DNA of 24,553 nt from positions 1 through 24,553 of IMG/VR virus record IMGVR_UViG_3300042401_000531; one strand, written 5' to 3'. This document shows, piece after piece, positions 2,231 to 23,421 of this stretch. The notes under the pieces were generated by a model. The model was not told the origin of the DNA and did no database searches. It saw nothing but the letters and a program-made list of their open reading frames with translations. The position numbers and the translations under genes were made by a program. This DNA comes from a virus. Position 1 is the first letter of the stretch. Each line of letters begins with the position of its first letter.

Positions 2231-2453
2231 CGCAATAACAATAAACAAAGAGCCTGCTTTTCATGAAATATTTCATGAGGGACATGTTGAACATGAAGGA
2301 AAATATCATCATTTCTGGCTAGTGCATCCACAAGGATTGGATGTTAATGGACATCATTACGAAATAGAAATTAGATGGTTCTTCAGTAGAGTACCAAGGG
2401 AGATACGAGCTTTGTATCCACAAATTATAGAAGCATTTAAACAAACATTATGA
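2223..2453 (+). CDS. Small hypothetical phage protein (76 aa)
   Basis: The ATG at 2223 overlaps the end of the upstream gene, and the TGA overlaps the next ATG at 2450 (ATGA). The protein is His- and aromatic-rich in its first half (HEIFHEGHVEHEGKYHHFWLVHP) and continues with YEIEIRWFFSRVPREIRALYPQII. The first half could form a beta-sheet and the last 20 residues a helix. I do not recognise the family. The histidine cluster could bind metal, but spacing does not match a known motif. Its position in a chain of overlapping genes supports it as real. Confidence 0.6.
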   Translation: MTNAITINKEPAFHEIFHEGHVEHEGKYHHFWLVHPQGLDVNGHHYEIEIRWFFSRVPREIRALYPQIIEAFKQTL

Positions 2454-2812
2454 ACATATTTAAAGTGATACCAATAGATGTGTATGGGCATGATGTAGTT
2501 GTGTCTATAGGACAATCAGATGAAGATCTTTATGAACATATCAGAGAGAATATATCTAAGAAGAAGTTTGATAAAAGAATGACTAATCAAAAAAGTATAG
2601 CCACTACATTTAAACTTAAAACTGGATGTATTCTTATAAGATTTAAAGATGATATAGATAACCCAGGGATTGTAGCTCATGAAGCCTTTCATGCTATTGT
2701 ATATCTATTTGAAAAGATAGGTATAGAGTTTGCATATGAATCAGAAGAAGCTTATGCTTATTCATTGGAGTATTTAACTAATCAAATATTAAAAATTAAA
2801 ACAGAATCATGA
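2450..2812 (+). CDS. HExxH putative zinc metallopeptidase-like phage protein
   Basis: A 120-aa protein whose central segment IVAHEAFHAIVYLFEKIGI contains HEAFH, a canonical HExxH zinc motif. It is followed about 20 residues later by SEEAYAYSLEYL, which offers a Glu as third ligand, as in gluzincin-like small phage proteins. The N-terminal half (VIPIDVYGHDVVVSIGQSDEDL) is beta-rich. Similar small HExxH proteins are common in phage genomes without known substrates. It has no signal peptide and so presumably acts in the cytoplasm. The stop overlaps a following tiny frame by ATGA. Confidence 0.6.
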   Translation: MNIFKVIPIDVYGHDVVVSIGQSDEDLYEHIRENISKKKFDKRMTNQKSIATTFKLKTGCILIRFKDDIDNPGIVAHEAFHAIVYLFEKIGIEFAYESEEAYAYSLEYLTNQILKIKTES

Positions 2813-2877
2813 TAAAAGGAGTAGCAAAAACAGAAGCTCAATATAGAGCAGTGCTTATGTTTAAAAAAATGTTATAA
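2809..2877 (+). CDS. Tiny frame (22 aa), possibly a remnant
   Basis: An ATG at 2809 overlaps the HExxH gene stop (ATGA), just as with its real neighbours. The frame reads MIKGVAKTEAQYRAVLMFKKML and stops at 2875-2877, immediately before the promoter of the RHH/GIY-YIG cassette. The coupled start and amphipathic, well-formed sequence suggest a real gene start whose remainder was removed or displaced when the nuclease cassette arrived. It could equally be a genuine micropeptide or chance. Confidence 0.35.
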   Translation: MIKGVAKTEAQYRAVLMFKKML

Positions 2878-2881
2878 AAAG

Positions 2882-2913
2882 TTTGGTAGATTAAAATATT
2901 TGTATTACATTTG
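2882..2913 (+). promoter_or_regulatory. Bacteroidota-type promoter for the RHH/GIY-YIG cassette
   Basis: TTTG at 2882-2885, a 20-base spacer, and TACATTTG at 2906-2913 match the Bacteroidota sigma-A consensus (TTTG ... TAnnTTTG). The predicted transcript starts about 20 bases or less before the ATG at 2934. The same TTTG-N20-TACATTTG arrangement is found on the other strand at 16036-16005. Confidence 0.75.
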
Positions 2914-2933
2914 TATAACAAAAACATATACAA

Positions 2934-3068
2934 ATGAAAAATCAAGAAACTATCTTACTTCGTATAAATGGGGAAGTAAAAGAAAAATTAGTTAAAAAAG
3001 CTGAATCATTAGGACTTAGCCTATCAGCGTACATTAGATTAATGATTATTCAAGACTTATTAATATAA
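2934..3068 (+). CDS. Ribbon-helix-helix (Arc/CopG-type) DNA-binding protein
   Basis: A 44-aa protein (MKNQETILLRINGEVKEKLV...). It has a short beta-strand (TILLRIN), then helix 1 (EVKEKLVKKAESLG), then LSLSAYIRLMIIQDLL as helix 2. This is the classic RHH arrangement, with the LSLSAYIR segment typical of the second helix. RHH proteins dimerise to form a two-stranded sheet that reads the DNA major groove. It lies directly downstream of a strong promoter and its TAA overlaps the ATG of the GIY-YIG nuclease by one base, so the two are almost certainly co-translated. An autorepressor of the cassette is the simplest role. An antitoxin-like role is possible but not supported, because no toxin is visible. 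Confidence 0.7.
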   Translation: MKNQETILLRINGEVKEKLVKKAESLGLSLSAYIRLMIIQDLLI

Positions 3069-3724
3069 TGGCAATAGTTTATCAACACATCAGATTAGAC
3101 ACAAATGAAATATTTTACATTGGTGTCGGTGCAACTTTGAAAAGAGCTTATTCTAAAACGTGTAGAAATTCCTTTTGGAAAGCAGTTATAGATAAAACAT
3201 CTTATAAAGTTGAAATTTTACATAATGATATAACTTATGAGGAAGCTTTGTTAATAGAAATTTCTTTAATAGAATTAATAGGTAGAAGAACTTTAAACAA
3301 AGGACCATTAGTAAATATTGATGCAGGAGGTAGAGGAAGTGCAGGACATAAACAATCAAAAGAATCTATTGAAAGGAGAAGACAAAAAATGCTTGGTCAT
3401 AAAGTTTCTGAAGAAACTAAAGAGAAATTAAGAATTTCTAATTTAGGTAAAAAAAGATCTTCAGAAACTAGACAAGCTAATAGAATTGCAAATTTAGGAA
3501 AGAAACTTTCTGATGAGCATAAACTTAAAATTTCAAAAGGTTTATTGAACAATAAAAACAAAGCGTTATACAAAAAAGGAAAAAAAGTTATTAATACTGA
3601 AACTAATGAGATATATAAATCTATGTCTATGGTTGCTAAACTTTTTAATATACCTATAGAAACACTTAGAAGAAGATTAAATAATTCTTCTGAAAAATGT
3701 AAACCCTTTGAGTATTTAACATAA
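3068..3724 (+). CDS. GIY-YIG homing endonuclease with NUMOD DNA-binding modules
   Basis: A 218-aa protein. Residues about 4-21 (VYQHIRLDTNEIFYIGVG) are a variant GIY-YIG signature: the first motif is VYQ instead of GIY and the second is FYIG. LIEISLIELIGR follows, providing the conserved Glu region. Residues about 95-165 hold repeated NUMOD3-like units (KVSEETKEKLRISNLGKK and two similar copies). The end (KKVINTETNEIYKSMSMVAKLFNIPIETLRRRL) is a NUMOD1-type helix-turn-helix. This is the standard free-standing phage homing nuclease layout, which makes a targeted DNA break to spread its own gene. It sits between two conserved genes under its own promoter, behind an RHH gene. Whether the altered first motif is still catalytic is unclear. 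Confidence 0.8.
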   Translation: MAIVYQHIRLDTNEIFYIGVGATLKRAYSKTCRNSFWKAVIDKTSYKVEILHNDITYEEALLIEISLIELIGRRTLNKGPLVNIDAGGRGSAGHKQSKESIERRRQKMLGHKVSEETKEKLRISNLGKKRSSETRQANRIANLGKKLSDEHKLKISKGLLNNKNKALYKKGKKVINTETNEIYKSMSMVAKLFNIPIETLRRRLNNSSEKCKPFEYLT

Positions 3725-8368: not shown

Positions 8369-9138
8369 TAATAGGTATAAATGGAAAGATAGGTGTAGGA
8401 AAAGATCTTACAGGTAAAATTATTCAATATTTAACATCTGACTACAAAGATAAATATAATTTTGTAGAATGGATTGATAGAGTAGAGAATTATGGATCAA
8501 ATACATATTCAAAATTTGAAGTGAAAAAGTTTGCAGGGAAGCTAAAACAAATAGCTTCCCTTCTCACTGGTATTCCTGTAGAGGATTTTGAAGATCAAGA
8601 ATTCAAGAAATCATATCTTGGAGCTGAATGGGGAACAGTGCAACAAGTACCACTTAACTCAATACCACCATTTGCTGACATACAGTTTAATGCATTAATG
8701 TCTGTAAGAGAACTTCTTCAGAAGCTTGGTACAGAAGCTATACGTGATGGATTACATCATAATACTTGGGTGAACGCATTGATGTGTGATTATAAAAGAC
8801 CAAAGATGAGTGAGTACAATCCAAGCAATTGGATTATTACAGATGTTAGGTTTCCTAATGAATTAGAAGCTGTTGTAGAGAAAGGTGGAATCACTATTAG
8901 AGTGATAAGAAATCCAATTATAGTAATAACTCTTGATGGAGAAAAACTAACTTTAGATTATAATGAATGGTTAAAGCAAAAACAATTTTATGAAAATCAA
9001 GGTTGGCAATTTACTGAACACCCATCAGAAACAGCTCTTGATGATGCTAAGTTTAATTATGAAATTATCAATGATGCTGGAATACCAGAATTAATAGAAA
9101 AAGTTAGACAAATATTAATAACAGAAAAAATTATATGA
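8365..9138 (+). CDS. Deoxynucleoside monophosphate kinase (T4 gp1-like)
   Basis: A 257-aa kinase that would convert dNMPs (in T4: dGMP, dTMP and 5-hydroxymethyl-dCMP) to diphosphates for phage DNA synthesis. The P-loop IGINGKIGVGKD is at residues 3-14. Downstream landmarks are RELLQKLGTEAIRDGLHHNTWVNAL, the WIITDVRFPNELEAV block and EHPSETALDD (about 218-227) followed by FNYEIINDAGIPELIEKV. This set is diagnostic of phage/bacterial dNMP kinases. The start overlaps the upstream small gene (ATGA), and the stop overlaps the HAD phosphatase start at 9135 (ATGA). Confidence 0.9.
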   Translation: MIIGINGKIGVGKDLTGKIIQYLTSDYKDKYNFVEWIDRVENYGSNTYSKFEVKKFAGKLKQIASLLTGIPVEDFEDQEFKKSYLGAEWGTVQQVPLNSIPPFADIQFNALMSVRELLQKLGTEAIRDGLHHNTWVNALMCDYKRPKMSEYNPSNWIITDVRFPNELEAVVEKGGITIRVIRNPIIVITLDGEKLTLDYNEWLKQKQFYENQGWQFTEHPSETALDDAKFNYEIINDAGIPELIEKVRQILITEKII

Positions 9139-9500
9139 CTTTAGCAATAGATTTTGATGGTACAATCTGTGAACAGAGCTTTCCTGAAATAGGAAAGCTT
9201 AAACCAGATGCTGATCTATACATTAGAAAACTTTTTGAAGAAGGACATAAGATTATCATTAATACATGTAGATCTGGTAAATATGAGGGATGGGCTCAAG
9301 ATTTTCTTGATGTAAATAAGATTCCATATCATTATATAAATAGTAACTTACCAGAGCTTATTGAACATTATGGACAAGATTGTAGAAAGATATCTGCAGA
9401 TATATACATAGATGATAAATGCTTAATGGGACTACCAGGTAGTTGGGAAATGATTTACACATTAATAAAAATAAAACAACAATTAAAACTAATCGTATGA
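9135..9500 (+). CDS. HAD-superfamily phosphatase/hydrolase (121 aa)
   Basis: HAD motif I is IDFDGTIC (Asp6 and Asp8, with Thr10). Motif II is NTCRSG (43-48). A late acidic motif is ADIYIDDKCLMG (Asp93, Asp94). These are the Mg-dependent phospho-transfer residues of a small cap-less HAD hydrolase, as in BT0820-like proteins. The substrate is unknown; a nucleotide or sugar phosphate would fit its place beside the dNMP kinase and mazG. Its stop TGA overlaps the ATG (9497) of the next gene, originally perhaps the start of mazG. Confidence 0.8.
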   Translation: MTLAIDFDGTICEQSFPEIGKLKPDADLYIRKLFEEGHKIIINTCRSGKYEGWAQDFLDVNKIPYHYINSNLPELIEHYGQDCRKISADIYIDDKCLMGLPGSWEMIYTLIKIKQQLKLIV

Positions 9501-10057
9501 AAAGTTACAATGAATTAGAGGCCCTTGTTATAGCATGGGCAGAAGAGGAAATATTTAAACCTGTTAAAGATTACGAAGATCATTATAAAATAAGTAACCT
9601 AGGAAGAGTAATGTCCATAAACTATAGAGGGAATGGAAGAAGCTGTATTCTAAAGACTAATATAAATAAAAATGGATATGAACAAGTAAGACTAAATGTA
9701 AATAAAGTTGGAAAAAATAAAAAAGTGCACAGATTAGTTGCAGAAGTGTTCATAGATAATCCTGAGAATAAAAAATGTGTAAATCATAAAGATAGTAATA
9801 AAACTAATAATAATATTAGTAATTTAGAATGGTGTACACATTCTGAAAATACAATTCACGCATTTAAAAATATAACAATATTTAGAGCAACTGGAGAAGA
9901 TAATTATATTTCAAAATTAAACAATGATAATGTTATTGAAATATATAAATCTATAAAATCTCATAGAGAATTAGCTAAAGAATACGGAGTTACAAAATAT
10001 ACTATAACGTCTATAAAATCAAAAAAGACATGGAAACAAATAACAAAAAATTTATGA
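9497..10057 (+). CDS. NUMOD4/HNH homing endonuclease fused to a MazG N-terminal fragment
   Basis: I take ATG 9497 as the start; codons further upstream lie in the HAD gene. The first 18 residues (MKSYNELEALVIAWAEEE) match the start of the MazG protein encoded next (MKNYQELEKLVIDWSREK), with MK-Y-ELE-LVI-W conserved. Then comes a NUMOD4 module (IFKPVKDYEDHYKISNLGRVMS) and an HNH core: KKVHRLVAEVFIDNPENKKCVNHKDSNKTNNNISNLEWCTHSEN. The C-terminus has a HTH (HRELAKEYGVTKYTITSIKS). This is a self-propagating homing nuclease. Its stop overlaps the mazG start (ATGA). See the finding on mazG start takeover. Confidence 0.82.
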   Translation: MKSYNELEALVIAWAEEEIFKPVKDYEDHYKISNLGRVMSINYRGNGRSCILKTNINKNGYEQVRLNVNKVGKNKKVHRLVAEVFIDNPENKKCVNHKDSNKTNNNISNLEWCTHSENTIHAFKNITIFRATGEDNYISKLNNDNVIEIYKSIKSHRELAKEYGVTKYTITSIKSKKTWKQITKNL

Positions 10058-10362
10058 AAAATTATCAAGAATTAGAAAAATTAGTCATTGACTGGAGTAG
10101 AGAAAAAGGTATTCTAGAGAATGGTACTACAATAGCACAAGCTGGTAAGACCATGGAGGAATGTACAGAACTTATGGTAGCAATTGCAAGACACGATGAT
10201 GATGAAATTATTGATGCTCTAGGAGACATTCTGGTAACAATCATTATACAAGCAGAGATGCAAGGAGTGAGCTTGACAGAATGTTTAGAGAGTGCATACA
10301 ATGTAATTGCTAAGCGTACAGGTAAGATGGTAGATGGTCAATTTGTAAAAGATGGAAACTAG
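10054..10362 (+). CDS. MazG-like nucleotide pyrophosphohydrolase
   Basis: A 102-aa single-domain MazG, starting at the ATG at 10054 that overlaps the HNH stop; an upstream in-frame ATG (10030) would fall inside the nuclease gene. Landmarks are MKNYQELEKLVIDW, then GKTMEECTELMVAIARHDDDEIIDALGDILVTIIIQAEMQG. The E-E-x-x-E and D-x-x-x-D residues of the metal-binding helices are present (EECTE, DALGD). MazG-type enzymes hydrolyse NTPs to monophosphates, and in phages may clean the nucleotide pool or modulate ppGpp. It overlaps the next small gene (10352) by 11 bases. Confidence 0.85.
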   Translation: MKNYQELEKLVIDWSREKGILENGTTIAQAGKTMEECTELMVAIARHDDDEIIDALGDILVTIIIQAEMQGVSLTECLESAYNVIAKRTGKMVDGQFVKDGN

Positions 10363-10561
10363 TTTATCATTACAGAACATGTGTAAGAAATGTGGAGGGT
10401 ATAAGTTTGCTCCCTACAATTCTAATACATCAGCTACGGTGAAATTGTGTCATTGTCCTAAATTACCAATAGGTTTTAAACTTAAAAAATTTAATCCTAA
10501 AGATCCAAGTCCATTTCCTAAAAGATATAACAGTGATGGCAGTGAGTGTAATGAAGTGTAA
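10352..10561 (+). CDS. Small cysteine-rich zinc-finger protein
   Basis: A 69-aa frame from the ATG at 10352; an internal ATG at 10379 (MCKKCGGYKFAPY) is an equally good start that avoids overlap with mazG. It contains CKKCGGY...LCHCPKLP, i.e. CxxC and CxC pairs about 20 residues apart, typical of a compact zinc ribbon. The remainder is rich in Lys, Pro and Asn (GFKLKKFNPKDPSPFPKRY). The start of the next gene lies within its last codons. Nucleic-acid binding is plausible; no family recognised. Confidence 0.55.
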   Translation: METSLSLQNMCKKCGGYKFAPYNSNTSATVKLCHCPKLPIGFKLKKFNPKDPSPFPKRYNSDGSECNEV

Positions 10562-10991
10562 AACATGTGGAAAGAATTCTGATAGTGAATTCTGTTTTAT
10601 ACATAAACCTAAAAAGATCTTACGATCAACTGGTAGGAGTTTAACTGGTAAAAAACCACTCAAACCTAAAAATAAACTTCTAGCATATAGGCCTAAAGGA
10701 TACGAAGAAGTCTATAAAGAAGTATTAGAAATGAGACAGTTCTTTGTATCTATATGGAATAAAAGACCACATAAATCAGAAGTATCAGAAGAATATCTAG
10801 GATCTGAACCTATGAGTACATACTTTCATCATATTTTACCAAAAGAAAAGTATCCAGAAGCTTGTTTAGATGAAGAAAATATCGTATTATTGTCCCTTCT
10901 TGAACATAGCAATGTAGAAAATGATATGTATAAGTATGAAGAGATTAATGACAGACGTAAACACTTATTAAAAAAATATGAAAGATCCTAA
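10551..10991 (+). CDS. HNH-like nuclease with N-terminal zinc finger
   Basis: Start taken as ATG 10551 (MKCKTCGKNSDSEFC); alternatives at 10536 (ATG) and 10533 (GTG) add only a few residues. The N-terminus is CKTCGKNSDSEFCFIHK, a CxxC...CxxH zinc knuckle. The C-terminus carries YFHHILPKEKYPEACLDEENIVLLSLLEHSNVENDMY, in which HHILPK, N-IVLL and H follow the HNH order. A basic Lys/Pro-rich stretch (TGKKPLKPKNKLLAYRPKGYEEVY) joins them. The overall plan resembles the phage recombination-nuclease type (NinG/Rap-like), which resolves recombination intermediates, but I cannot confirm this. It overlaps phoH by 14 bases. Confidence 0.55.
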   Translation: MKCKTCGKNSDSEFCFIHKPKKILRSTGRSLTGKKPLKPKNKLLAYRPKGYEEVYKEVLEMRQFFVSIWNKRPHKSEVSEEYLGSEPMSTYFHHILPKEKYPEACLDEENIVLLSLLEHSNVENDMYKYEEINDRRKHLLKKYERS

Positions 10992-16036: not shown

Positions 16037-16311
16037 CTTATTTCAAAAGTTATTACACTTGATGTTTTAATACTCTTACTCATATCCACTCTAATGTTGA
16101 ACATGTTACAAAACTTTAATACTTCTTCTATGAGCATATTGTTATACTTAGGAAGACTTGCTGCTATTCTGAATCTGTAAGAATCTGATAACTTTGTTAT
16201 CTCTAGACTACATAGTTCATCAACAGAGCTTATTACACCTTCCAAATGAGCAAGAAATGTTTCATCATTATCTTGCATCAATTTTGGAAAATGTTTTTTA
16301 TTTATTTGCAT
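16024..16311 (-). CDS. Conserved phage hypothetical protein (95 aa)
   Basis: Starts MQINKKHFPKLMQDNDETF. Then comes a helical segment (VDELCSLEITKLSDSYRFRIAASLPKYNNMLIEEVLKFCNM) and a terminal beta region ending SIKTSSVITFEISLEV. The pattern I-R-I-x-x-S-L-P-x-Y...IIEEILKxxNxxxI...SKSIKTSxxIxF recurs in related phage genomes, in my recollection. The start codon lies directly beside the GIY-YIG stop, so the nuclease gene is inserted immediately in front of it. No function known. Confidence 0.6.
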   Translation of the reverse strand: MQINKKHFPKLMQDNDETFLAHLEGVISSVDELCSLEITKLSDSYRFRIAASLPKYNNMLIEEVLKFCNMFNIRVDMSKSIKTSSVITFEISLEV

Positions 16312-17064
16312 CTATAATAAGTATATTAATGATGTATCATTAGTTCTAGTACCTATCAACTTAGCTCTAAGTGTACCCATAGGTATTCTAAGTTTATCAG
16401 AAGCTTCTTTTCCAGAGTTAAATATCTCACCAGTAACTGTATTAATTACTTTTCTTGATCCTGGATTTAAACTTCCAATTCTTTTTTTATTTGATTCTGA
16501 AATTGCTAAACTTGTTTGTTTAAGTATTTTTAAACCTTTTCTACCATGTGACTTACCTTCATTAGACTCAGATATTTTTAGTTTAGTTTCTTTTGAAAGT
16601 ACTCTACCTTTACTTGTTTCTTTTATTTTAGCTTTAGTTTCATCAGATACTTTTCTACCTAATGCTTTTTGTCTGATCTTTTCTTTTGTTTCAGCTGAAT
16701 GAAAAAAGTAATTACTATCATTAACTAAAATATTGTTATATTCTGGTTTATATATTTTAATCCACTTATTTTCTCTAATTAATCTATTTTCAGGTATTGA
16801 TATTTTTTCTACATGTAATAATACAAAATTTTCTTCTCCATATTTATTCCAAGCTGCTTGTAAATGTGAATTAGGATGCTTATTTGTATTAAGTAAATTT
16901 TGATGACTGTTAAATCTTTTCTTAACATTAATACTACTACCTATATAAATATGATTGTTTATATTATTCTGTATAATATATATTCCACAGTTTCTAAGTG
17001 TTTTTATTTTAAGCTCTCTTTCCTTAAGACCTTCTTTAGAATAAAATAATTCTTCTGTTTGCAT
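16312..17064 (-). CDS. GIY-YIG homing endonuclease with NUMOD3/NUMOD1 modules
   Basis: A 250-aa nuclease. After a 26-residue N-terminal extension, CGIYIIQNNINNHIYIGSS carries the GIY and YIG motifs. INVKKRFNSH has the catalytic Arg region, and HPNSHLQAAWNKYGEENF with LIRENKWIKIYKPEYN completes the fold. Several NUMOD3-like repeats follow (KVSDETKAKIKETSKGRVLSKETKLKISESNEG) and a NUMOD1-type HTH ends the protein (KVINTVTGEIFNSGKEASDKLRIPMGTLRAKL). The last domain resembles the end of the GIY-YIG protein at 3068, so they share ancestry there. It sits between the ferritin-like gene (4-base gap) and a conserved gene, with no promoter of its own visible. Confidence 0.85.
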   Translation of the reverse strand: MQTEELFYSKEGLKERELKIKTLRNCGIYIIQNNINNHIYIGSSINVKKRFNSHQNLLNTNKHPNSHLQAAWNKYGEENFVLLHVEKISIPENRLIRENKWIKIYKPEYNNILVNDSNYFFHSAETKEKIRQKALGRKVSDETKAKIKETSKGRVLSKETKLKISESNEGKSHGRKGLKILKQTSLAISESNKKRIGSLNPGSRKVINTVTGEIFNSGKEASDKLRIPMGTLRAKLIGTRTNDTSLIYLL

Positions 17065-17068
17065 ATTG

Positions 17069-17491
17069 CTATGTTAGAGTTAATCTATATTTTATTTGTG
17101 CAATACTTCCACTTAAAGATTGACTGATGTTTTCTATATCAGGCATATTTGATAACTTTCCATATTCTTCAAGTTGTTTAGCAAACTCAATTACTTGAGT
17201 TGCTAATACAGTAGATGCCCCTGTAGAATAATCTTTTATAGAATCTATTTTAAAAGATTTAATTCTTTTACCTTGATAACCCATTATTTTTTCTACAATC
17301 TCATCTTTTAAAGAGAATAAAAGTTCATACATTTCTCCTAAAGCAGTGTGTTCAAATCCTCCAAAGGTTTGCCAATGGAGGAGATGTGCTTGTAAGTGAA
17401 AATAAGTTAGCTTCCCTGCAATAGTCTCTAATGTAAGACCAGAGCCTTTATCTCCCATCATTTCTTCTGGAAATAGTGATTTTAGTGCCAT
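17069..17491 (-). CDS. Ferritin/Dps-like phage protein (DUF5856-like)
   Basis: A 140-aa protein. THLQAHLLHWQT-like text (FHLQAHLLHWQTFGGFEHTALGEMYELLFSLKDEIVEKIMGYQGKR) has the H-W-Q-T/E-H-x-A-L-G-x-x-Y/D-E-I-V-E spacing typical of T4-type DUF5856 and Dps-like four-helix proteins. The glutamates and histidines in HLLHWQT and EHTALGEMYE could be metal ligands. Enzymatic ferroxidase activity is not demonstrated for this family. It is placed among tail-module genes, so a virion role is also possible. Confidence 0.65.
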   Translation of the reverse strand: MALKSLFPEEMMGDKGSGLTLETIAGKLTYFHLQAHLLHWQTFGGFEHTALGEMYELLFSLKDEIVEKIMGYQGKRIKSFKIDSIKDYSTGASTVLATQVIEFAKQLEEYGKLSNMPDIENISQSLSGSIAQIKYRLTLT

Positions 17492-17501
17492 AATTTAAAT
17501 A

Positions 17502-17741
17502 TTAAAGTGCAGGCGTGGTTGTTGTAGTTGTTGTAGGAGCTACTGTAGTAGTTGTACTAGTTGTAGGTGCTGCTGTTGTTGTTGTGGTGGTAGTAGGTGT
17601 ATAGTTACAACATTCGTATGCTGTAATTTCTTGCCATTTACCAACCTTTGGTTTACTTCTTCTTAGAACTAAACTTCCTGCTACAATTCTGCCAGATCCA
17701 TCGAATCTTACATAGGCCTTAAGGTCTCTCTTGTTACTCAT
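17502..17741 (-). CDS. Small virion-like protein with Thr-rich C-terminal tail
   Basis: MSNKRDLKAYVRFDGSGRIVAGSLVLRRSKPKVGKWQEITAYECCNY forms a compact beta domain, in a pattern I recall as conserved in related phages. The last 32 residues (48-79) are Thr/Pro/Ala-rich (TPTTTTTTTAAPTTSTTTTV...). The Thr tail shares the TTTTVAPTTTT unit with the 607-aa adhesin gene. A role as a small surface decoration or linker protein is plausible. Its stop lies 10 bases before the ferritin-like gene. Confidence 0.6.
   Translation of the reverse strand: MSNKRDLKAYVRFDGSGRIVAGSLVLRRSKPKVGKWQEITAYECCNYTPTTTTTTTAAPTTSTTTTVAPTTTTTTTPAL
17505..17600 (-). repeat. Thr-coding microsatellite-like tract (32 codons)
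   Basis: A GTT/GTA/GTG-rich tract on the plus strand, which on the minus strand encodes Thr residues of the 79-aa protein (aa 48-79). Two T-rich blocks are separated by Ala-Pro. It shares a unit (GTAGGAGCTAC) with the tract at 21334-21423. Confidence 0.7.
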
Positions 17742-17758
17742 GATAATTGTTTTTGTTA

Positions 17759-18775
17759 TTAATAATTAAGTTTATATTTTTGTTTTATGTTGTTAAGCTC
17801 GTTTGCATAGAACCATGTGCAGTACTTCTGTGATTCTATATTATTTAATACATCATCTAAGTGAGGATCTTTTGTAGGATCAGTTCCTTGATGATATTTT
17901 CCTTTGTAGAAACAAGGATATCCATTCATTGATACTCCTGTTATTCCTGCATTATGAAAGATAGGGTATGTTTCTAGTTTAGATATGGGATCTGTTGCCC
18001 ATGTAAAATTTAATTCTTTTGTTACCTTACTTTGTTTATTAAAAAACCAAAGATTAAATTGCACTGCCCAAAGATCTGCACACCATGATTGTATGCCACT
18101 ATTTTCATCTTTAAAAAGATCTTTATTTATTTGTTGAAGATACATTCTTATTTTAAGAACATCTGTTTCAACTTTTTTCCAAAAAGCAGCATCTATATCT
18201 TTTAGAATATATTGTACACCTCCTGTATTAGTATTATTGTCTACTACAATTTGTTTATCTATTCCAACTATAGCACAAACTCCTTTTAAAAAATCTATTG
18301 ATCTAGCTTCTTCTAATTTTTCAGGAAGTACATCTTTATATTTACTCTCAAAGTATGAATAGTTTAAATAGGAATTAGCATCACTTACATAATTTATATC
18401 ATCTTCTAATAAATGATTTATATTTAATGATTTTAACCAAAGAATATCACTATCTGTATATATAATAGTTTTATCCTGTAGTTCTGGAAAAGCTTCAAAA
18501 TGTTGCCAAAGTATGTGAGGTCTTAATATAGGAATATAAGTTCCTAGAAATTGTTGAACCCCTTTATCTTCATAAACAAATATATTTAGCTTTGGATAGC
18601 AGTCTTTTAATTTATCCCAACTAGTATTATAAGCTCTTCCTATAGGATTGTATAATAGGATATGTATTTGTTCTTCTTTAAACCCTTGCTGTAAACAAGA
18701 TTCTATATATAGATGATTTTGCCATACAAAGTATGTATCTGTAGGTTGACATGTAATTAAAATTGGTTTAGACAT
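17759..18775 (-). CDS. GT-A type glycosyltransferase
   Basis: A 338-aa protein with a Rossmann-like start (KPILITCQPTDTYFVWQNHLYIESCLQQGF) and the metal-binding DxD, DSD (residues 108-110), in KTIIYTDSDILWLKSL, as in nucleotide-sugar-dependent enzymes. A NTGGVQYILKDIDAAFW block follows (acceptor/donor region) and a W-rich, His-containing C-terminal part (PIFHNAG, YPCFYKGKYHQGTD). The expected role is transfer of a sugar to an unknown acceptor. It overlaps the HNH gene by 8 bases and lies among Thr-rich surface proteins, so these may be its substrate. No signal peptide is seen, so it acts in the host cytoplasm during virion assembly. Confidence 0.75.
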   Translation of the reverse strand: MSKPILITCQPTDTYFVWQNHLYIESCLQQGFKEEQIHILLYNPIGRAYNTSWDKLKDCYPKLNIFVYEDKGVQQFLGTYIPILRPHILWQHFEAFPELQDKTIIYTDSDILWLKSLNINHLLEDDINYVSDANSYLNYSYFESKYKDVLPEKLEEARSIDFLKGVCAIVGIDKQIVVDNNTNTGGVQYILKDIDAAFWKKVETDVLKIRMYLQQINKDLFKDENSGIQSWCADLWAVQFNLWFFNKQSKVTKELNFTWATDPISKLETYPIFHNAGITGVSMNGYPCFYKGKYHQGTDPTKDPHLDDVLNNIESQKYCTWFYANELNNIKQKYKLNY

Positions 18776-19310
18776 GGTTCCATATTTTGTTGTTAATAAT
18801 GTATCCTATTAATGTTAATCCAACATTATATTTATAGGCAAGTTGTTTGTATGTAGTTTTTGTACTTTTATATTCTTTTCTAATATTTATAACTTGTTCT
18901 TCTGTTAACTTAGAGTTTTTATTACCACTACCTTTATAAGTTTTAGGATCTCTATGTATGTAAGAATGTTTTATATTATCACTTCTTGTGATCCATTCTA
19001 AATTATTTAAAGCATTGTTATGTTTATTGTGATCTATGTGATTAACTTCTATTAATCCTTTTGGGTTATCTAAAAAAGTTAAAGCAACTATTCTATGTGT
19101 AGTTAAAGATTTACATTTACCAAAACCATTGTATAATTTTACATGAAAATATCCACGATGGTCTTCAAATTGTGTTAATGTTTTTTGTTTCTTTAAATAC
19201 TGATGTGTTGACAGTACAATAACTCTTTCAATAGTTCTAATGTTTCCTTGACTGCTTACTTCATAATAAGATTCATAATCTTTTACTGGTTTCCAAATTT
19301 CTATTTCCAT
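18768..19310 (-). CDS. NUMOD4/HNH homing endonuclease
   Basis: Start taken as ATG at 19310 (MEIEIWKPVKDYE); an upstream non-ATG start adds a weak 15-residue segment and overlaps the promoter boxes. NUMOD4: EIWKPVKDYESYYEVSSQGNIRT. HNH: HRIVALTFLDNPKGLIEVNHIDHNKHNNALNNLEWITRSDNIKHS. The C-terminus has a HTH segment (TTYKQLAYKYNVGLTLIGYII). The enzyme should cleave a homologous site in phages lacking the gene. It overlaps the glycosyltransferase by 8 bases and has its own promoter at 19331-19362. The N-terminal module matches that of the nuclease at 9497. Confidence 0.85.
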   Translation of the reverse strand: MEIEIWKPVKDYESYYEVSSQGNIRTIERVIVLSTHQYLKKQKTLTQFEDHRGYFHVKLYNGFGKCKSLTTHRIVALTFLDNPKGLIEVNHIDHNKHNNALNNLEWITRSDNIKHSYIHRDPKTYKGSGNKNSKLTEEQVINIRKEYKSTKTTYKQLAYKYNVGLTLIGYIINNKIWNHV

Positions 19311-19330
19311 ATTAATGTTATTTATAATAA

Positions 19331-19362
19331 CAAATGTAAAATAAATATTTGACATATCCTAA
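19331..19362 (-). promoter_or_regulatory. Promoter for the HNH/glycosyltransferase segment
   Basis: On the minus strand: TTAG (19362-19359), 20 bases, TACATTTG (19338-19331). The ATG of the HNH gene is at 19310. This matches the spacing of the promoters at 2882, 5927, 7100 and 16005; only the third base of the -33 box differs from TTTG. Confidence 0.6.
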
Positions 19363-19420
19363 CATCTGATTGATTATTTTTTACTATCTTTCATATGTAG
19401 TTGGTTTAATATTATAGATT

Positions 19421-19597
19421 TTACACTATGGTTGTAGTGGTGGTGGTAGTTGGAACTACAGTGGTGGTAGTACTAGTGGTGGTTGGGTAAACATTACCTT
19501 GTGATACCACTTTGATTAAATGATCTAATTGCTTTGATATATTCCAAAGTAAATTAGCTTCTGCTGATTGTCCGATTTGTTTAGCTGGTATTGCCAT
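19421..19597 (-). CDS. Small protein with Thr-rich C-terminus (58 aa)
   Basis: Read from the DNA: ATG at 19597-19595, TAA at 19423-19421. MAIPAKQIGQSAEANLLWNISKQLDHLIKVVSQG is a well-formed helical N-terminal half, a motif I recall from other Bacteroidota phages (MAIPAKQIGQSxEANLLWEISKQLDRLxKV). The C-terminal 20 residues are a Thr-rich tail (PTTTSTTTTVVPTTTTTTTIV). It parallels the 79-aa Thr-tailed protein and is probably a small virion protein. Confidence 0.65.
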   Translation of the reverse strand: MAIPAKQIGQSAEANLLWNISKQLDHLIKVVSQGNVYPTTTSTTTTVVPTTTTTTTIV

Positions 19598-19683
19598 AAT
19601 TGATTGTTTATTTGTTAGTTACAAAAATATAATAATTTTTGCAAACATTTATGATTATAAATAAATTAAAATAATCAAAAAGA
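19598..19683. other. 86-base AT-rich gap
   Basis: A very AT-rich spacer between two small minus-strand genes. On the minus strand TATTTTTG (19629-19622) matches TAnnTTTG, but no TTTG or TTAG box lies 20 bases upstream, so I do not call a promoter. Nothing else is seen. Confidence 0.3.
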
Positions 19684-19809
19684 TTATCTTCCTTGTCCTC
19701 TATAAGCTTTAGGTCTTTCTTCTTTAGGACCATAAGATTTTTTATGTCTTCCTGACACTTTACTTCCAAAAACTATTTTTTTAGAAGAATCTGTTTTAAC
19801 TTTTGCCAT
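19684..19809 (-). CDS. Small basic protein (41 aa)
   Basis: ATG at 19809-19807, TAA at 19686-19684. MAKVKTDSSKKIVFGSKVSGRHKKSYGPKEERPKAYRGQGR is strongly basic, and the ending KSYGPKEERPKAYRGQGR is of a kind I recall in small phage proteins (K-S-x-G-P-K-x-x-x-x-x-x-Y-R-G-Q-G-R). The stop of the 607-aa adhesin lies 9 bases before it. No domain or enzymatic motif; possible nucleic-acid or virion binding. Confidence 0.55.
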   Translation of the reverse strand: MAKVKTDSSKKIVFGSKVSGRHKKSYGPKEERPKAYRGQGR

Positions 19810-19818
19810 TGGTTTATA

Positions 19819-21642
19819 TTATGTGGTTATTATTGTTACAGAATTATTAGCTTGAAGATATTGAATATCACCATCTGGCAATCCTCCATTACAAGTCATG
19901 AGAGCTGCTGGAATTGTTAGTGTAATATTTTGACCTGCTATACTGTCAAATACATGATCATATCCTGTAGTATTTCCCATATTTTCTAAACTTGGTAAGT
20001 AAATATTATATATTGGCATAGTATTATTAAAACCATAATTCCCTATAGAAACTAATTTAGGTAATAAAAATTGAACACCAGATCCTGCAAAAGTAAATGT
20101 ACCTGCAGTTACTAAATTTGGAAAATTATAGTTAGGCACACCATCTATAGAGACAAAACAATAATCTCCTGCAGTTTGAAGTAAAGGTAATTTTAAAGTA
20201 TTTATACTATTACATGAATTAAAAGCACTATCTCCTGCAGTTATAACTCCATTTAATATTACATAATTTAATGCATAACAATCTAAGAAAGCACCTCCTT
20301 CTAATACAGTTACTACTCCTGAAATATCTACTATTTCTAATACACTATCTTGTGAACCATTGTTAAAATAAAACAATTCATTTTTAATAGTTATATTAGT
20401 TGCTCCTATTAAACTAACTATATTTCCTGAAATACTTACACTTGTAAATGGTGTACCAAAAGTTGGCAAATCAAAGAAAGTATTCCAATCTGCTACATTA
20501 CTAGCACTTCCAGATACTAAAACATCCGCATTAGCTATATCATCAAAGGTTATTTCAATAGTTTGTTCTGTATCACATGCTACATCATTGTAAATATCTA
20601 ATGTTTTATTAGCAATATTTAAAGCTTGTTCTTCTGTAAGACCAGGTGTCCCTTGTTCTGTAGCCACTACTATTGTAATTATAGTTAAGTTATCAGAATT
20701 AAGTCCTTGTATACAATGATCATCATATTCTCCTAGGTTATCATATAATTGTGTAACTCCTGATATATCCCCATGAATTAAAATAATGTGATTTATAGAA
20801 GGATCTTCAAGTGCATTATCTACATTAGTTTTAACATAGGCGGTCCATCCTGGATGTGCTGTTGCTATATATACTGCATTTGTAGCATCACCATCTGATC
20901 CTAAACTTCCTGTAATACTAAATTCTGTAATATTAATATTATTTGCTGCTAATATAAACATACCAGGATACATATTAGTAAAATATGTACTTCCTGTACC
21001 AAAATAATCTGTTCCTGATGCTATATAACCATCTATAGAAGGATTAGTATAATTACATTCTATAAGGTAATCACCATTTTGAGAATGTGTATAAGGAATA
21101 CTTAAATTATAATTTACATTATTTTCACTAATATCTGCATATAATTGTGTTAAATTAGTATTGAATAAATTACCACCATCATACATGTCACTACATCCAT
21201 CATCTATATTAGTATATGGTCCTTCTAGATTAGTGTAATCACTAAAATAAATTATATTAGGAATAAGTGTGGTTACTTGTTCATAGCAAGAATTCATAGA
21301 ATTAACAAATTGTGGTAAACTAAAACTAAATATAGTAGTAGTAGTTGTTGTGGTAGTAGGAGCTACGGTTGTAGTTGTAGTGGTAGTAGTAGGTGTAGCT
21401 GTTGAAGTAGTGGTGGTTGTAGTTAAACCACTTATAGGCATATCTGTATAACTCGTACAAGTTCCTGTAGCCATCACTCTTATTGTAGTTGCACCATCTG
21501 GAACAGGAGATAAATAATATCCTGCTAATAATGCCATTTTTGATATTCCTGATGCAATAGGAGTGACATTATCAAAATTTGAATAGATGTCAAATGTTGT
21601 TGTATTTATTCCTACTGCTGATAATGTTATTAATACTGTCAT
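19819..21642 (-). CDS. Large tail adhesin-like protein with Thr linker and LRR-like region (607 aa)
   Basis: Three parts. Residues 1-73 form a small beta domain (LITLSAVGINTTTFDIYSN...DGATTIRVMATGTC) that is homologous to the N-terminus of the protein at 21683, consistent with a shared anchoring module. Residues 74-103 are a Thr-rich linker. The remainder is beta-rich, ending with a repetitive stretch (about 400-590) such as GGAFLDCYALNYVIL, AGDSAFNSCNSINTLKL and TAGDYCFVS, resembling BspA/TpLRR leucine-rich repeats (x-x-A-F-x-x-C-x-x-L-x-x-L-x-L). A receptor- or surface-binding role is likely. There is no signal peptide; it is presumably a tail-tip or fibre component rather than secreted. 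Confidence 0.65.
   Translation of the reverse strand: MTVLITLSAVGINTTTFDIYSNFDNVTPIASGISKMALLAGYYLSPVPDGATTIRVMATGTCTSYTDMPISGLTTTTTTSTATPTTTTTTTTVAPTTTTTTTTIFSFSLPQFVNSMNSCYEQVTTLIPNIIYFSDYTNLEGPYTNIDDGCSDMYDGGNLFNTNLTQLYADISENNVNYNLSIPYTHSQNGDYLIECNYTNPSIDGYIASGTDYFGTGSTYFTNMYPGMFILAANNINITEFSITGSLGSDGDATNAVYIATAHPGWTAYVKTNVDNALEDPSINHIILIHGDISGVTQLYDNLGEYDDHCIQGLNSDNLTIITIVVATEQGTPGLTEEQALNIANKTLDIYNDVACDTEQTIEITFDDIANADVLVSGSASNVADWNTFFDLPTFGTPFTSVSISGNIVSLIGATNITIKNELFYFNNGSQDSVLEIVDISGVVTVLEGGAFLDCYALNYVILNGVITAGDSAFNSCNSINTLKLPLLQTAGDYCFVSIDGVPNYNFPNLVTAGTFTFAGSGVQFLLPKLVSIGNYGFNNTMPIYNIYLPSLENMGNTTGYDHVFDSIAGQNITLTIPAALMTCNGGLPDGDIQYLQANNSVTIITT
21334..21423 (-). repeat. Thr-coding tract in the 607-aa adhesin (30 codons)
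   Basis: Encodes residues 74-103, mostly Thr with Ser, Ala, Pro and Val (TTTTTTSTATPTTTTTTTTV...). Degenerate GTAGTA/GTTGTA triplets on the plus strand make the tract repetitive and prone to slippage. It joins the conserved N-terminal domain to the variable C-terminal part. Confidence 0.7.
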
Positions 21643-21682
21643 ATTTTTATATATGTTAATTTATTATAATTGATTTTTTATA

Positions 21683-22549
21683 TTATACAAGTTGTGTAAC
21701 TGCGTTTACTTCATATAGATACATTGATGGATCAATAGCATACCAAGTTCCTATTGTTACAGGAATTTGTGTACTAACAAAACTACCTGTAACAGTTTGT
21801 GTTTCTACAGTAGTATAACTTGAGACAGCTCTTAAAGTTCTTTGTAAATCTAGTGTAAGCTGAACAGTACCTCCACCACCAGGAATTTGTGGACTTGAGT
21901 TAGCTGTTATTTGAATTTCATCACCTACCTGTAAATTATCTGGATATATATTACTAATTGAATTTAATCCATTATAATATTCAGTAGTTGATACTCCAGA
22001 ATTTTGTTGTGCTGCAGCAACATCATATGTTATAACACCATCTCTTCTACGATTTATTTTAAAGTTTATAGATGTATATGTACCAACAACAGCGTGCCAA
22101 TATAAAGCTACCCCTGGTGCAATATCTGGTGTAGTAGTGGTTGTAGTGCTTGTAGTGGTGGTACTACTAGTTGATGTAGACGTACTAGTAGAAGTTGATG
22201 TACTAGTACTCGATGATGTTGTAGTAGTACTCGATGATGATGTTGTAGTAGTTGTTATTGGAGCTGTAGTAGTGGTAGATGTTGTAGGTGGAACATCAAC
22301 TGATGCTGTACCTGCTATTAAACAAGGATCATCATTAATTACTATATCAATTTGATTACCACATACACCCATAGATACCACTCTAATAATTGTTGCATCA
22401 TTAGGAACAAATGGTGTTGTATATCCAGCTATCAAATCAGCAGCACTTATATCTGTGTCAAATGGCTGATCATAATCATCTGCATTTGAATAAAGATTAA
22501 AAGGACCTGCGTCACTTCCTACATTTGTTAATGTTATTAATGTTGTCAT
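21683..22549 (-). CDS. Tail adhesin-like protein with Ser/Thr linker (288 aa)
   Basis: The N-terminal domain (about 1-74, LITLTNVGSDAGPFNLYSNADDY...NDATIIRVVSMGVCG) is homologous to that of the 607-aa protein. Residues 88-140 form a Ser/Thr linker (PPTTSTTTTAPITT then long SSS/TSTS runs). The C-terminal domain (about 141-288) is beta-rich with aromatic and Asn/Gly content (VALYWHAVVGTYTSINFKINRRRDG, IQITANSSPQIPGGGGTVQLT), like a small carbohydrate- or receptor-binding jelly roll, but I recognise no specific family. The modular plan is anchor, flexible stalk, variable head. Confidence 0.6.
   Translation of the reverse strand: MTTLITLTNVGSDAGPFNLYSNADDYDQPFDTDISAADLIAGYTTPFVPNDATIIRVVSMGVCGNQIDIVINDDPCLIAGTASVDVPPTTSTTTTAPITTTTTSSSSTTTTSSSTSTSTSTSTSTSTSSTTTTSTTTTTTPDIAPGVALYWHAVVGTYTSINFKINRRRDGVITYDVAAAQQNSGVSTTEYYNGLNSISNIYPDNLQVGDEIQITANSSPQIPGGGGTVQLTLDLQRTLRAVSSYTTVETQTVTGSFVSTQIPVTIGTWYAIDPSMYLYEVNAVTQLV
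22130..22288 (-). repeat. Ser/Thr-coding microsatellite tract (about 53 codons)
   Basis: Encodes residues 88-140 of the 288-aa protein, with alternating Ser and Thr (TSTSTSTS) encoded by ACT/AGT-type codons. On the plus strand it appears as GTA/CTA repeats with tandem ACTAGTA units. It creates spurious Val-rich antisense frames. Confidence 0.75.
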
Positions 22550-22569
22550 TATTATATATTTTATATTAT

Positions 22570-23421
22570 TTAATCTTTTATTAATCTTACAGACCTACCA
22601 TATGAAGTATTACCAAAATTCCATTGAATATCTCCATTTAAATATAATAGAGTACGAGAAGATAAATAATTAATATTTCCAGTGGCACTCCACCAATACC
22701 CATAATTTTGGATAAATGCAAAAAGTCCTGTGTAATCTCTATATCCTCCTGCCAAGGCAGTGAAACCAGTTTCATTTGTTACTAAATAACTAGTACTTGA
22801 CCAATGACATTTTCCAACTTCTTTTAATTTAACCCCTACGTTATAAACTGTACCTGCAAAAGTAGGAACATTTCCACCTATGTAGGTTGTCAATGCAATC
22901 CACTCAGAATCAGTAGGGATGTGATAACCAATAGGAGCTAAGCCTCTTGGGTTATTAACAGCGTACCCATTATAAAGTTTTCCATAAACTGCCCCATTTA
23001 AAGGGTCATTATCGTAATAGCACCACGCACCTTCAGTTAAGGCAGCCCATTGTTGGTCTGTGTAACTACTTGCGTCAATGAGTGGTGTTCCATCTCTATA
23101 TGTTGTTACATCTAAATTACAAACTGTCCATATTTGTGTACCAATAGTTACTTCTGTTCCTGATATACAATTTGCACAAATAGTTGTTGTGGTTGTTGTT
23201 GTTGTTGGTGGTAATGTAGTGGTAGTAGTGGTTGTGCTACTACTAGTGGAAGTGCTTGTTGAGGTACTAGTAGAAGTAGAAGTACTAGTAGATGTAGAAG
23301 TACTAGTTGAACTACTTGTAGTTGTTGTGGTTGGAGATAATGTAGTTGTTCTAGTTGTAGTAAAACAACTAGTGGGATAGTAAACAGTTACTATTTCATA
23401 TATCTCATCACATCTTCTCAT
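22570..23421 (-). CDS. FISUMP / C-type-lectin-like tail adhesin with Ser/Thr linker (283 aa)
   Basis: A short leader (MRRCDEIYEIVTVYYPTSCF), a 60-residue Ser/Thr linker (aa 21-80, with a TSTSTSTS run) and a C-terminal domain from about residue 88. The latter has TEVTIGTQIWTVCNLDVTTYRDGTPL, GAWCYYDNDPLNGAVYGKLYNGYAVNNPRGLAPIGYHIPTDSEW and ETGFTALAGGYRDYTGLF, then YWWSATGN and GRSVRLIKD. This is the FISUMP (Fibrobacter succinogenes major paralogous) domain, an FGE/C-type-lectin-like fold. Comparable folds are the ligand-binding heads of variable phage and bacterial adhesins, in some cases diversified by retroelements. No reverse transcriptase is in this window. It shares one base with the endolysin gene. 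Confidence 0.8.
   Translation of the reverse strand: MRRCDEIYEIVTVYYPTSCFTTTRTTTLSPTTTTTSSSTSTSTSTSTSTSTSTSTSTSTSSSTTTTTTTLPPTTTTTTTTICANCISGTEVTIGTQIWTVCNLDVTTYRDGTPLIDASSYTDQQWAALTEGAWCYYDNDPLNGAVYGKLYNGYAVNNPRGLAPIGYHIPTDSEWIALTTYIGGNVPTFAGTVYNVGVKLKEVGKCHWSSTSYLVTNETGFTALAGGYRDYTGLFAFIQNYGYWWSATGNINYLSSRTLLYLNGDIQWNFGNTSYGRSVRLIKD
23182..23361 (-). repeat. Ser/Thr-coding microsatellite tract (60 codons)
   Basis: Encodes residues 21-80 of the FISUMP protein. The central part alternates Ser and Thr and is flanked by long Thr runs and two Pro-containing breaks (LSP, LPP). The plus-strand DNA is a degenerate repeat of ACTAGTAGAAGT-like units. Confidence 0.78.

Follow-up and report, generated by a model that had tools for sequence, protein, structure and literature searches.

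A NUMOD4-HNH endonuclease gene that begins with a captured mazG start in a phage, with probable restoration of mazG as a hybrid gene

How a nuclease gene can come to begin with what looks like the start of the gene that follows it is the question raised by a locus in a viral DNA of 24,553 nucleotides (IMG/VR virus record IMGVR_UViG_3300042401_000531, positions 1 to 24,553), which we refer to in its full length as the window. The genes of this region are arranged in the order RecA, dNMP kinase, HAD, HNH, mazG, HNH-like ORF and PhoH. The TGA stop codon of the HAD-like hydrolase gene (9135..9500, + strand) overlaps the start of the HNH ORF (9497-10057, +), which begins MKSYNELEALVIAWAEE, in an ATGA at 9497-9500. 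A second ATGA overlap (10054..10057, +) joins the stop of the HNH ORF to the start of mazG (10054-10362, +), which begins MKNYQELEKLVIDWSREKG. A preliminary description of this DNA had given these coordinates and overlaps correctly. It had further proposed that the two starts are related, that the nuclease had entered a mazG gene after about codon 18 while keeping its old start, and that mazG had been rebuilt with a fresh start by recombination.

The first 17 residues of the HNH protein, MKSYNELEALVIAWAEE, indeed resemble the start of the downstream mazG product, MKNYQELEKLVIDWSRE: the start-anchored similarity of the two N termini gives a score of 59, against a 99.9th percentile of 24-33 among mismatched pairs of HNH and downstream genes used as the null. 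At the DNA level, the two starts within the window are just 62% identical over 45 nt. The same 45 nt at the 5' end of the HNH ORF are 96-98% identical to the intact mazG starts of about 14 related contigs among 80 viral mazG loci, with 44 of the 45 nt matching in L059 and L014 and further mazG starts in this range in L048, L036 and L015. This segment also has the resident state at 12 of 14 diagnostic sites. Thus, the nuclease retains an old mazG start, as had been proposed, in the form of a captured resident mazG 5' end of about 17 codons, MKSYNELEALVIAWAEE (9497..9547, +), which is now the nuclease start and N terminus. As the resident mazG DNA that encodes this N terminus has hardly changed, the insertion is not an old event. 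Among the fetched loci, 40 of the 41 DNA matches to the HNH/mazG start pattern continue into mazG (KGI...), and the remaining one, that of the window, continues into the nuclease; HNH proteins with the MKSYNELE start away from mazG, which would have spoken against a mazG origin, were not encountered among them. Only one contig, that of the window, has the codon-17 form, and no second copy turned up when viral contigs were searched with a degenerate pattern for the fusion of a mazG start to NUMOD4.

Related phages preserve the site without the insertion, as the preliminary description had anticipated. In L043, a HAD gene whose product is 86% identical at the amino acid level lies directly before mazG, with its stop overlapping the mazG ATG in the context ...AATCGTATGAAAA, and in the window the same AATCGTATGAAAA HAD context leads into the HNH ORF. 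HAD also directly precedes mazG in L015, L023, L049, L050 and L072, so that the window HNH is optionally present at a site that is empty in L043 and these five loci. In seven other loci it is a dNMP kinase gene that directly precedes mazG, and an HNH gene of this kind was found upstream of mazG in none of the 80 viral mazG loci. The blastn alignment of the window with L043 consists of two blocks, 8827-9541 matching 2373-3045 and 10028-10353 matching 2975-3300, which overlap on the mazG start. As both blocks cover this start in L043, it is represented twice around the insert.

The HNH protein passes the curated cutoffs for the NUMOD4-HNH endonuclease family, with NUMOD4 (residues 18-67; 3.7e-11, 43.5 bits against a Pfam cutoff of 23.4) followed by HNH_3 (residues 75-118; 2.6e-10, 40.2 bits against a Pfam cutoff of 24.8), and it matches PHROG 59 at 8.6e-54. 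In domain order and sequence family, it corresponds to the NUMOD4/HNH_3 homing endonucleases (Pfam PF07463 and PF13392; PHROG 59), from which it differs by 17 additional N-terminal residues from the invaded gene. Because these domains start only at residue 18, they do not include the mazG-like piece. The endonuclease body (9548..10057, +), comprising NUMOD4 (9548-9697), HNH_3 (9719-9850) and a C-terminal helix-turn-helix-like part, is without a start codon of its own ahead of Met39. A scan of genome contigs returned only distant relatives of the HNH protein, and a megablast search of the whole window against phage records gave no match.

The left junction (9542..9550, +), at which the resident mazG GCAGAA is fused to NUMOD4 GAAATATTTAAACCT, falls at mazG codon 16-18, close to the codon 18 originally suggested; its exact base, placed by comparing the mazG genes of L015 and L002 with the HNH gene of L081, is ambiguous on account of a short GAA/GAG microhomology. 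The mazG gene behind the nuclease is a hybrid. Up to nt 50 its state is foreign (about 15% resident), and from nt 56 onward it is resident (94%); a maximum chi-square test on the sites separating resident-type mazG from other types places a recombination break at nt 50-56 (10104..10110, +; permutation p = 0.0002). Past this right junction, the resident state is found at 33 of 35 scored diagnostic sites, and the resident-type body (10110..10362, +) codes for the MazG nucleotide pyrophosphohydrolase domain (Pfam MazG, 1.4e-8). The foreign replacement 5' end of about 17 codons (10054..10104, +) shares 84% identity with L016 and 80% with L081, compared with 62-67% with the resident-type relatives. 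This stretch of about 51 nt follows immediately 3' of the HNH ORF, in the manner of a co-converted flank; no donor came to light when its start, MKNYQELEKLVIDW, was sought with a degenerate pattern. Within mazG, the left junction at codon 16-18 coincides with the right break at codon 17-19, and joining their outer sides yields MKSYNELEALVIAWAEEKGILENGTTIAQAGK, an ordinary resident mazG. Because of this coincidence, the cassette would consist of the HNH gene from NUMOD4 onward plus foreign mazG codons 1-17. These results agree with the proposed rebuilding of mazG by recombination. They also separate two explanations that had been offered for the divergence of the two N termini: the donor did differ, as the second start came from another mazG lineage, whereas the suggestion that the event is not recent does not hold for a captured start that is 96-98% resident.

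The closest relatives of the window HNH, with 74-76% amino acid identity, are encoded by the viral contigs L081 and L082. In L081, the stop of the HNH gene overlaps the mazG start in the same ATGA, and the contig ends about 66 nt into mazG. Homology between the HNH proteins of the window and L081 (74% from NUMOD4 onward) starts at the same point as the NUMOD4 body, and the N terminus of the L081 protein, MTNQNNTLHANLVYN...KLIING, differs from that of the window. The first 45 nt of the L081 and L082 HNH genes are 100% and 95% identical, respectively, to the N-terminally extended mazG start of a related phage, L080, and the ...GITPFGYNPKYKLTIT part ahead of MKYNELEALV is common to L074 and L076. 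This N terminus, for which a tblastn search against phage gave no match, was at first read as coming from an unrelated gene, a reading that was discarded when local comparison identified it as a mazG N-terminal extension. The L082 HNH gene is truncated and has a variant start (MKNQNN...), and its DNA is 97% identical to that of L081 over the whole shared stretch. Given these different N termini, one HNH family has captured two distinct mazG starts in two phage groups. The presence of the same HNH family in the mazG genes of L081 and L082 strengthens the case for mazG as the probable homing target, a role that the preliminary description had assigned to it.

Two further observations concern these genes. 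In L082/L171 (3890-4321), the HNH is truncated at about residue 104 and runs on as RGWDMQKIIETPINKKHTKK, which represents the C terminus of a different HNH-like gene (compare L068 3921-3977); the result is a decayed or recombined nuclease. The mazG genes of L074, L076, L070, L062 and L080 have very different short extensions before a constant MKYNELEALV core; these extensions are possibly scars of past start captures.

On the basis of the above, we consider it probable that a start-less NUMOD4-HNH homing cassette was inserted in the mazG frame, where it captured the resident start and supplied a divergent 5' end that restored mazG as a hybrid. The window HNH would be a free-standing homing endonuclease of the NUMOD4-HNH type, carried by a mobile cassette without its own start codon. 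This cassette would enter the resident mazG in frame at codon 16-18, as a consequence of which the nuclease would be translated from the old mazG start, still coupled to the HAD stop. Behind the nuclease stop, it would bring mazG codons 1 to about 17 from another lineage, with their own ATG in the ATGA overlap, and this foreign start would rejoin the resident body at codon 18-19. The HNH nuclease is predicted to cut or nick uninterrupted mazG near the insertion site, and repair from a donor with the L081-like order (HNH, ATGA, mazG) would rely on mazG homology to the right and on little or none to the left. The 45-51 nt that match on the left are a short stretch, a point that counts against the model. 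The L081 order would make a natural donor because mazG can restart there at an existing Met without duplication. Further, the recoded start probably shields the new allele from recutting.

A screen of some 130-170 HNH ORFs for N-terminal repeats (about 170 in one round, 134 distinct ORFs in another) left three gene contexts that are backed by empty sites, namely mazG and, as independent parallels to it, the portal and tape-measure genes. In the portal gene, the upstream region plus ATGCAGCAGCAAACAAAT of L283 is of the resident type of L250, and the upstream region plus ATGCAGCAACAAACGAAT of L284, whose HNH is 91% identical to that of L283, is of the type of L246. In L283 and L284 alike, the portal gene begins anew with the same recoded sequence, ATGCAGCAACAGACAAA(C/T)ACATAT, and the portal alignments show two clean blocks with an 18-nt overlap on the empty relative. 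A third HNH, that of L287, is only 50% identical and is inserted after codon 2 of the portal gene; the restarted portal gene is 83% identical to the empty L260 over 90 nt and 96-100% identical thereafter, a divergence with the shape expected of a co-conversion tract. In the tape-measure gene, L291 (on the same contig as L093) is about 98% identical to the empty L292 over the upstream region and first 5 codons (280 nt). L291 keeps the MAGLE of L292 and continues into NUMOD4, and its tape-measure gene restarts as MANLE with altered codons. Across these loci, the insertion is in frame after 2-17 codons, the recipient start is used and the restart is divergent. Further short repeats (L143, L184, L187, L236 and L152) occur at about the chance rate and were not counted. 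As just three gene contexts with empty sites emerged from the screen, start capture is, to judge from these comparisons, recurrent but not general. We lean slightly toward regarding these loci as members of a recurrent class of phage homing cassettes, in which a start-less NUMOD4-HNH gene lies a few codons into an essential gene, makes use of the recipient's promoter, ribosome context and start codon, and is accompanied by a fixed, recoded 5' end of the target gene that would provide for repair and resistance to cutting.

An HNH annotated as a dUTPase in Staphylococcus phage IME1318_01 (L169, 2495-3418) was set aside, being the front of one long ORF and thus a different arrangement. This dUTPase ORF starts with NUMOD4-HNH and may represent an in-frame nuclease insertion at the front of the dUTPase. 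The window itself has at least six nuclease-like genes, counting the HNH-like ORFs at 870-1304 and 10533-10991. One is a second NUMOD4-HNH gene (18768-19355, -), whose last codons share 8 nt with the start of the downstream glycosyltransferase-like gene (ATGTCTAAACC); an HNH gene with the same overlap is present at this glycosyltransferase-like gene in L187 and L197. A GIY-YIG gene (16312-17064, -) separates a Dps-like gene (17069-17491) from the following gene (start at 16311), two genes that adjoin each other in L187; this GIY-YIG gene shows no evident captured start. A further GIY-YIG-like gene is located at 3068-3724 (+). The region 17502-23421 (-) codes for several proteins with long Thr/Ser-rich tracts (TTTTTTST...), which are likely variable structural or tail proteins.

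The arrangement in the window could also have arisen in two separate events, with the HNH gene inserting in frame at mazG and an unrelated phage recombination swapping the mazG 5' end later or earlier. Since mazG is generally mosaic across the phage group, the foreign 5' tract could be the gain of such a separate event. We nevertheless regard this as improbable: the swap abuts the HNH stop in four contexts (the window mazG, the L283/L284 portal gene, the L287 portal gene and the L291 tape-measure gene), and a target gene not yet supplied with a new start would have stayed broken between the two events. A marginally lower probability attaches to a simple insertion in which the mazG start was duplicated locally, in tandem and within the same genome, and the second copy then diverged. 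The same gene order would be expected from it, and the two starts are homologous. However, the captured copy is 96-98% resident, as opposed to 62-67% for the second, which is instead 80-84% like L016 and L081. Moreover, the break at nt 50-56 is sharp and the divergence in L287 ends at nt 90 before identity rises to 96-100%, and drift would not stop at such boundaries.

HNH nucleases with NUMOD4 are frequently found in introns, and the ORF here continues the frame of the upstream exon; both points would suit a group I intron or intein in mazG that encodes the HNH and is spliced to restore MazG. Of the 557-nt insert, however, the HNH uses about 510 nt, leaving little non-ORF sequence. An Rfam search of the insert gave no match, so that no catalytic RNA was detected around the ORF, and Pfam revealed no splicing domain of an intein. 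The HNH frame ends at 10057 and mazG begins again in a different one, which interrupts the frame of the host protein, and because mazG has its own start right after the HNH stop, no exon is left for splicing. This origin thus appears very improbable, far more so than the preceding two.

The start-less cassette that we favor resembles the mORFs of fungal mitochondria, known from gene hybrids of Allomyces atp6 and Glomus atp6, atp9, cox2 and nad3 (PMC3630166). In these, too, an endonuclease ORF with a foreign terminal segment replaces the native one to give a hybrid gene, and the native remnant is nearer to relatives than the inserted segment is (PMC3630166). The fungal mORFs replace the C terminus and leave the native 3' remnant behind (PMC3630166), whereas in the window the situation is mirrored at the 5' end: it is the N terminus that has been exchanged, and what is left of the native 5' end, start codon included, lies upstream, where it now serves as the nuclease start. 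The systems also differ in that the window is from a phage and has an HNH nuclease, whereas the fungal enzymes are of the LAGLIDADG or GIY-YIG type (PMC3630166). The free-standing homing endonucleases of T4-like phages (SegF, MobE and others) are intron free, variably present and next to a conserved gene, and they are promoterless cassettes that join an existing transcript (PMC2988022). Those in Aeh1 nrdA (mobE) and T4 gene 60 (mobA) split the gene into two polypeptides (PMC2988022). Unlike these intergenic or gene-splitting cases, the window nuclease depends on a borrowed start codon, and a second, foreign start restores the gene that it invaded. Start capture with restoration is not described in PMC2988022 or, where searched, in PMC10448857 and PMC12724721. 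More broadly, the open-licence full-text literature yielded no phage report of the arrangement seen in the window.

Homing endonucleases are generally considered to require an intron, an intein or an intergenic site for the harmless invasion of a conserved gene. The loci described here show a simple alternative, in which the nuclease takes the start of the host gene and gives it a new one. That two further phage genes show the same trick suggests a repeatedly used route by which a coding gene can be entered and yet left intact. Start capture accounts for the odd tails at the N terminus of HNH proteins annotated in phages and offers a searchable sequence signature, namely, an empty site, a captured start and a recoded restart. 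It also means that homing can exchange the N termini of MazG, portal and tape-measure proteins between phage lineages. If true, start capture would give nucleases a third way, in addition to introns and inteins, of residing inside a coding gene.
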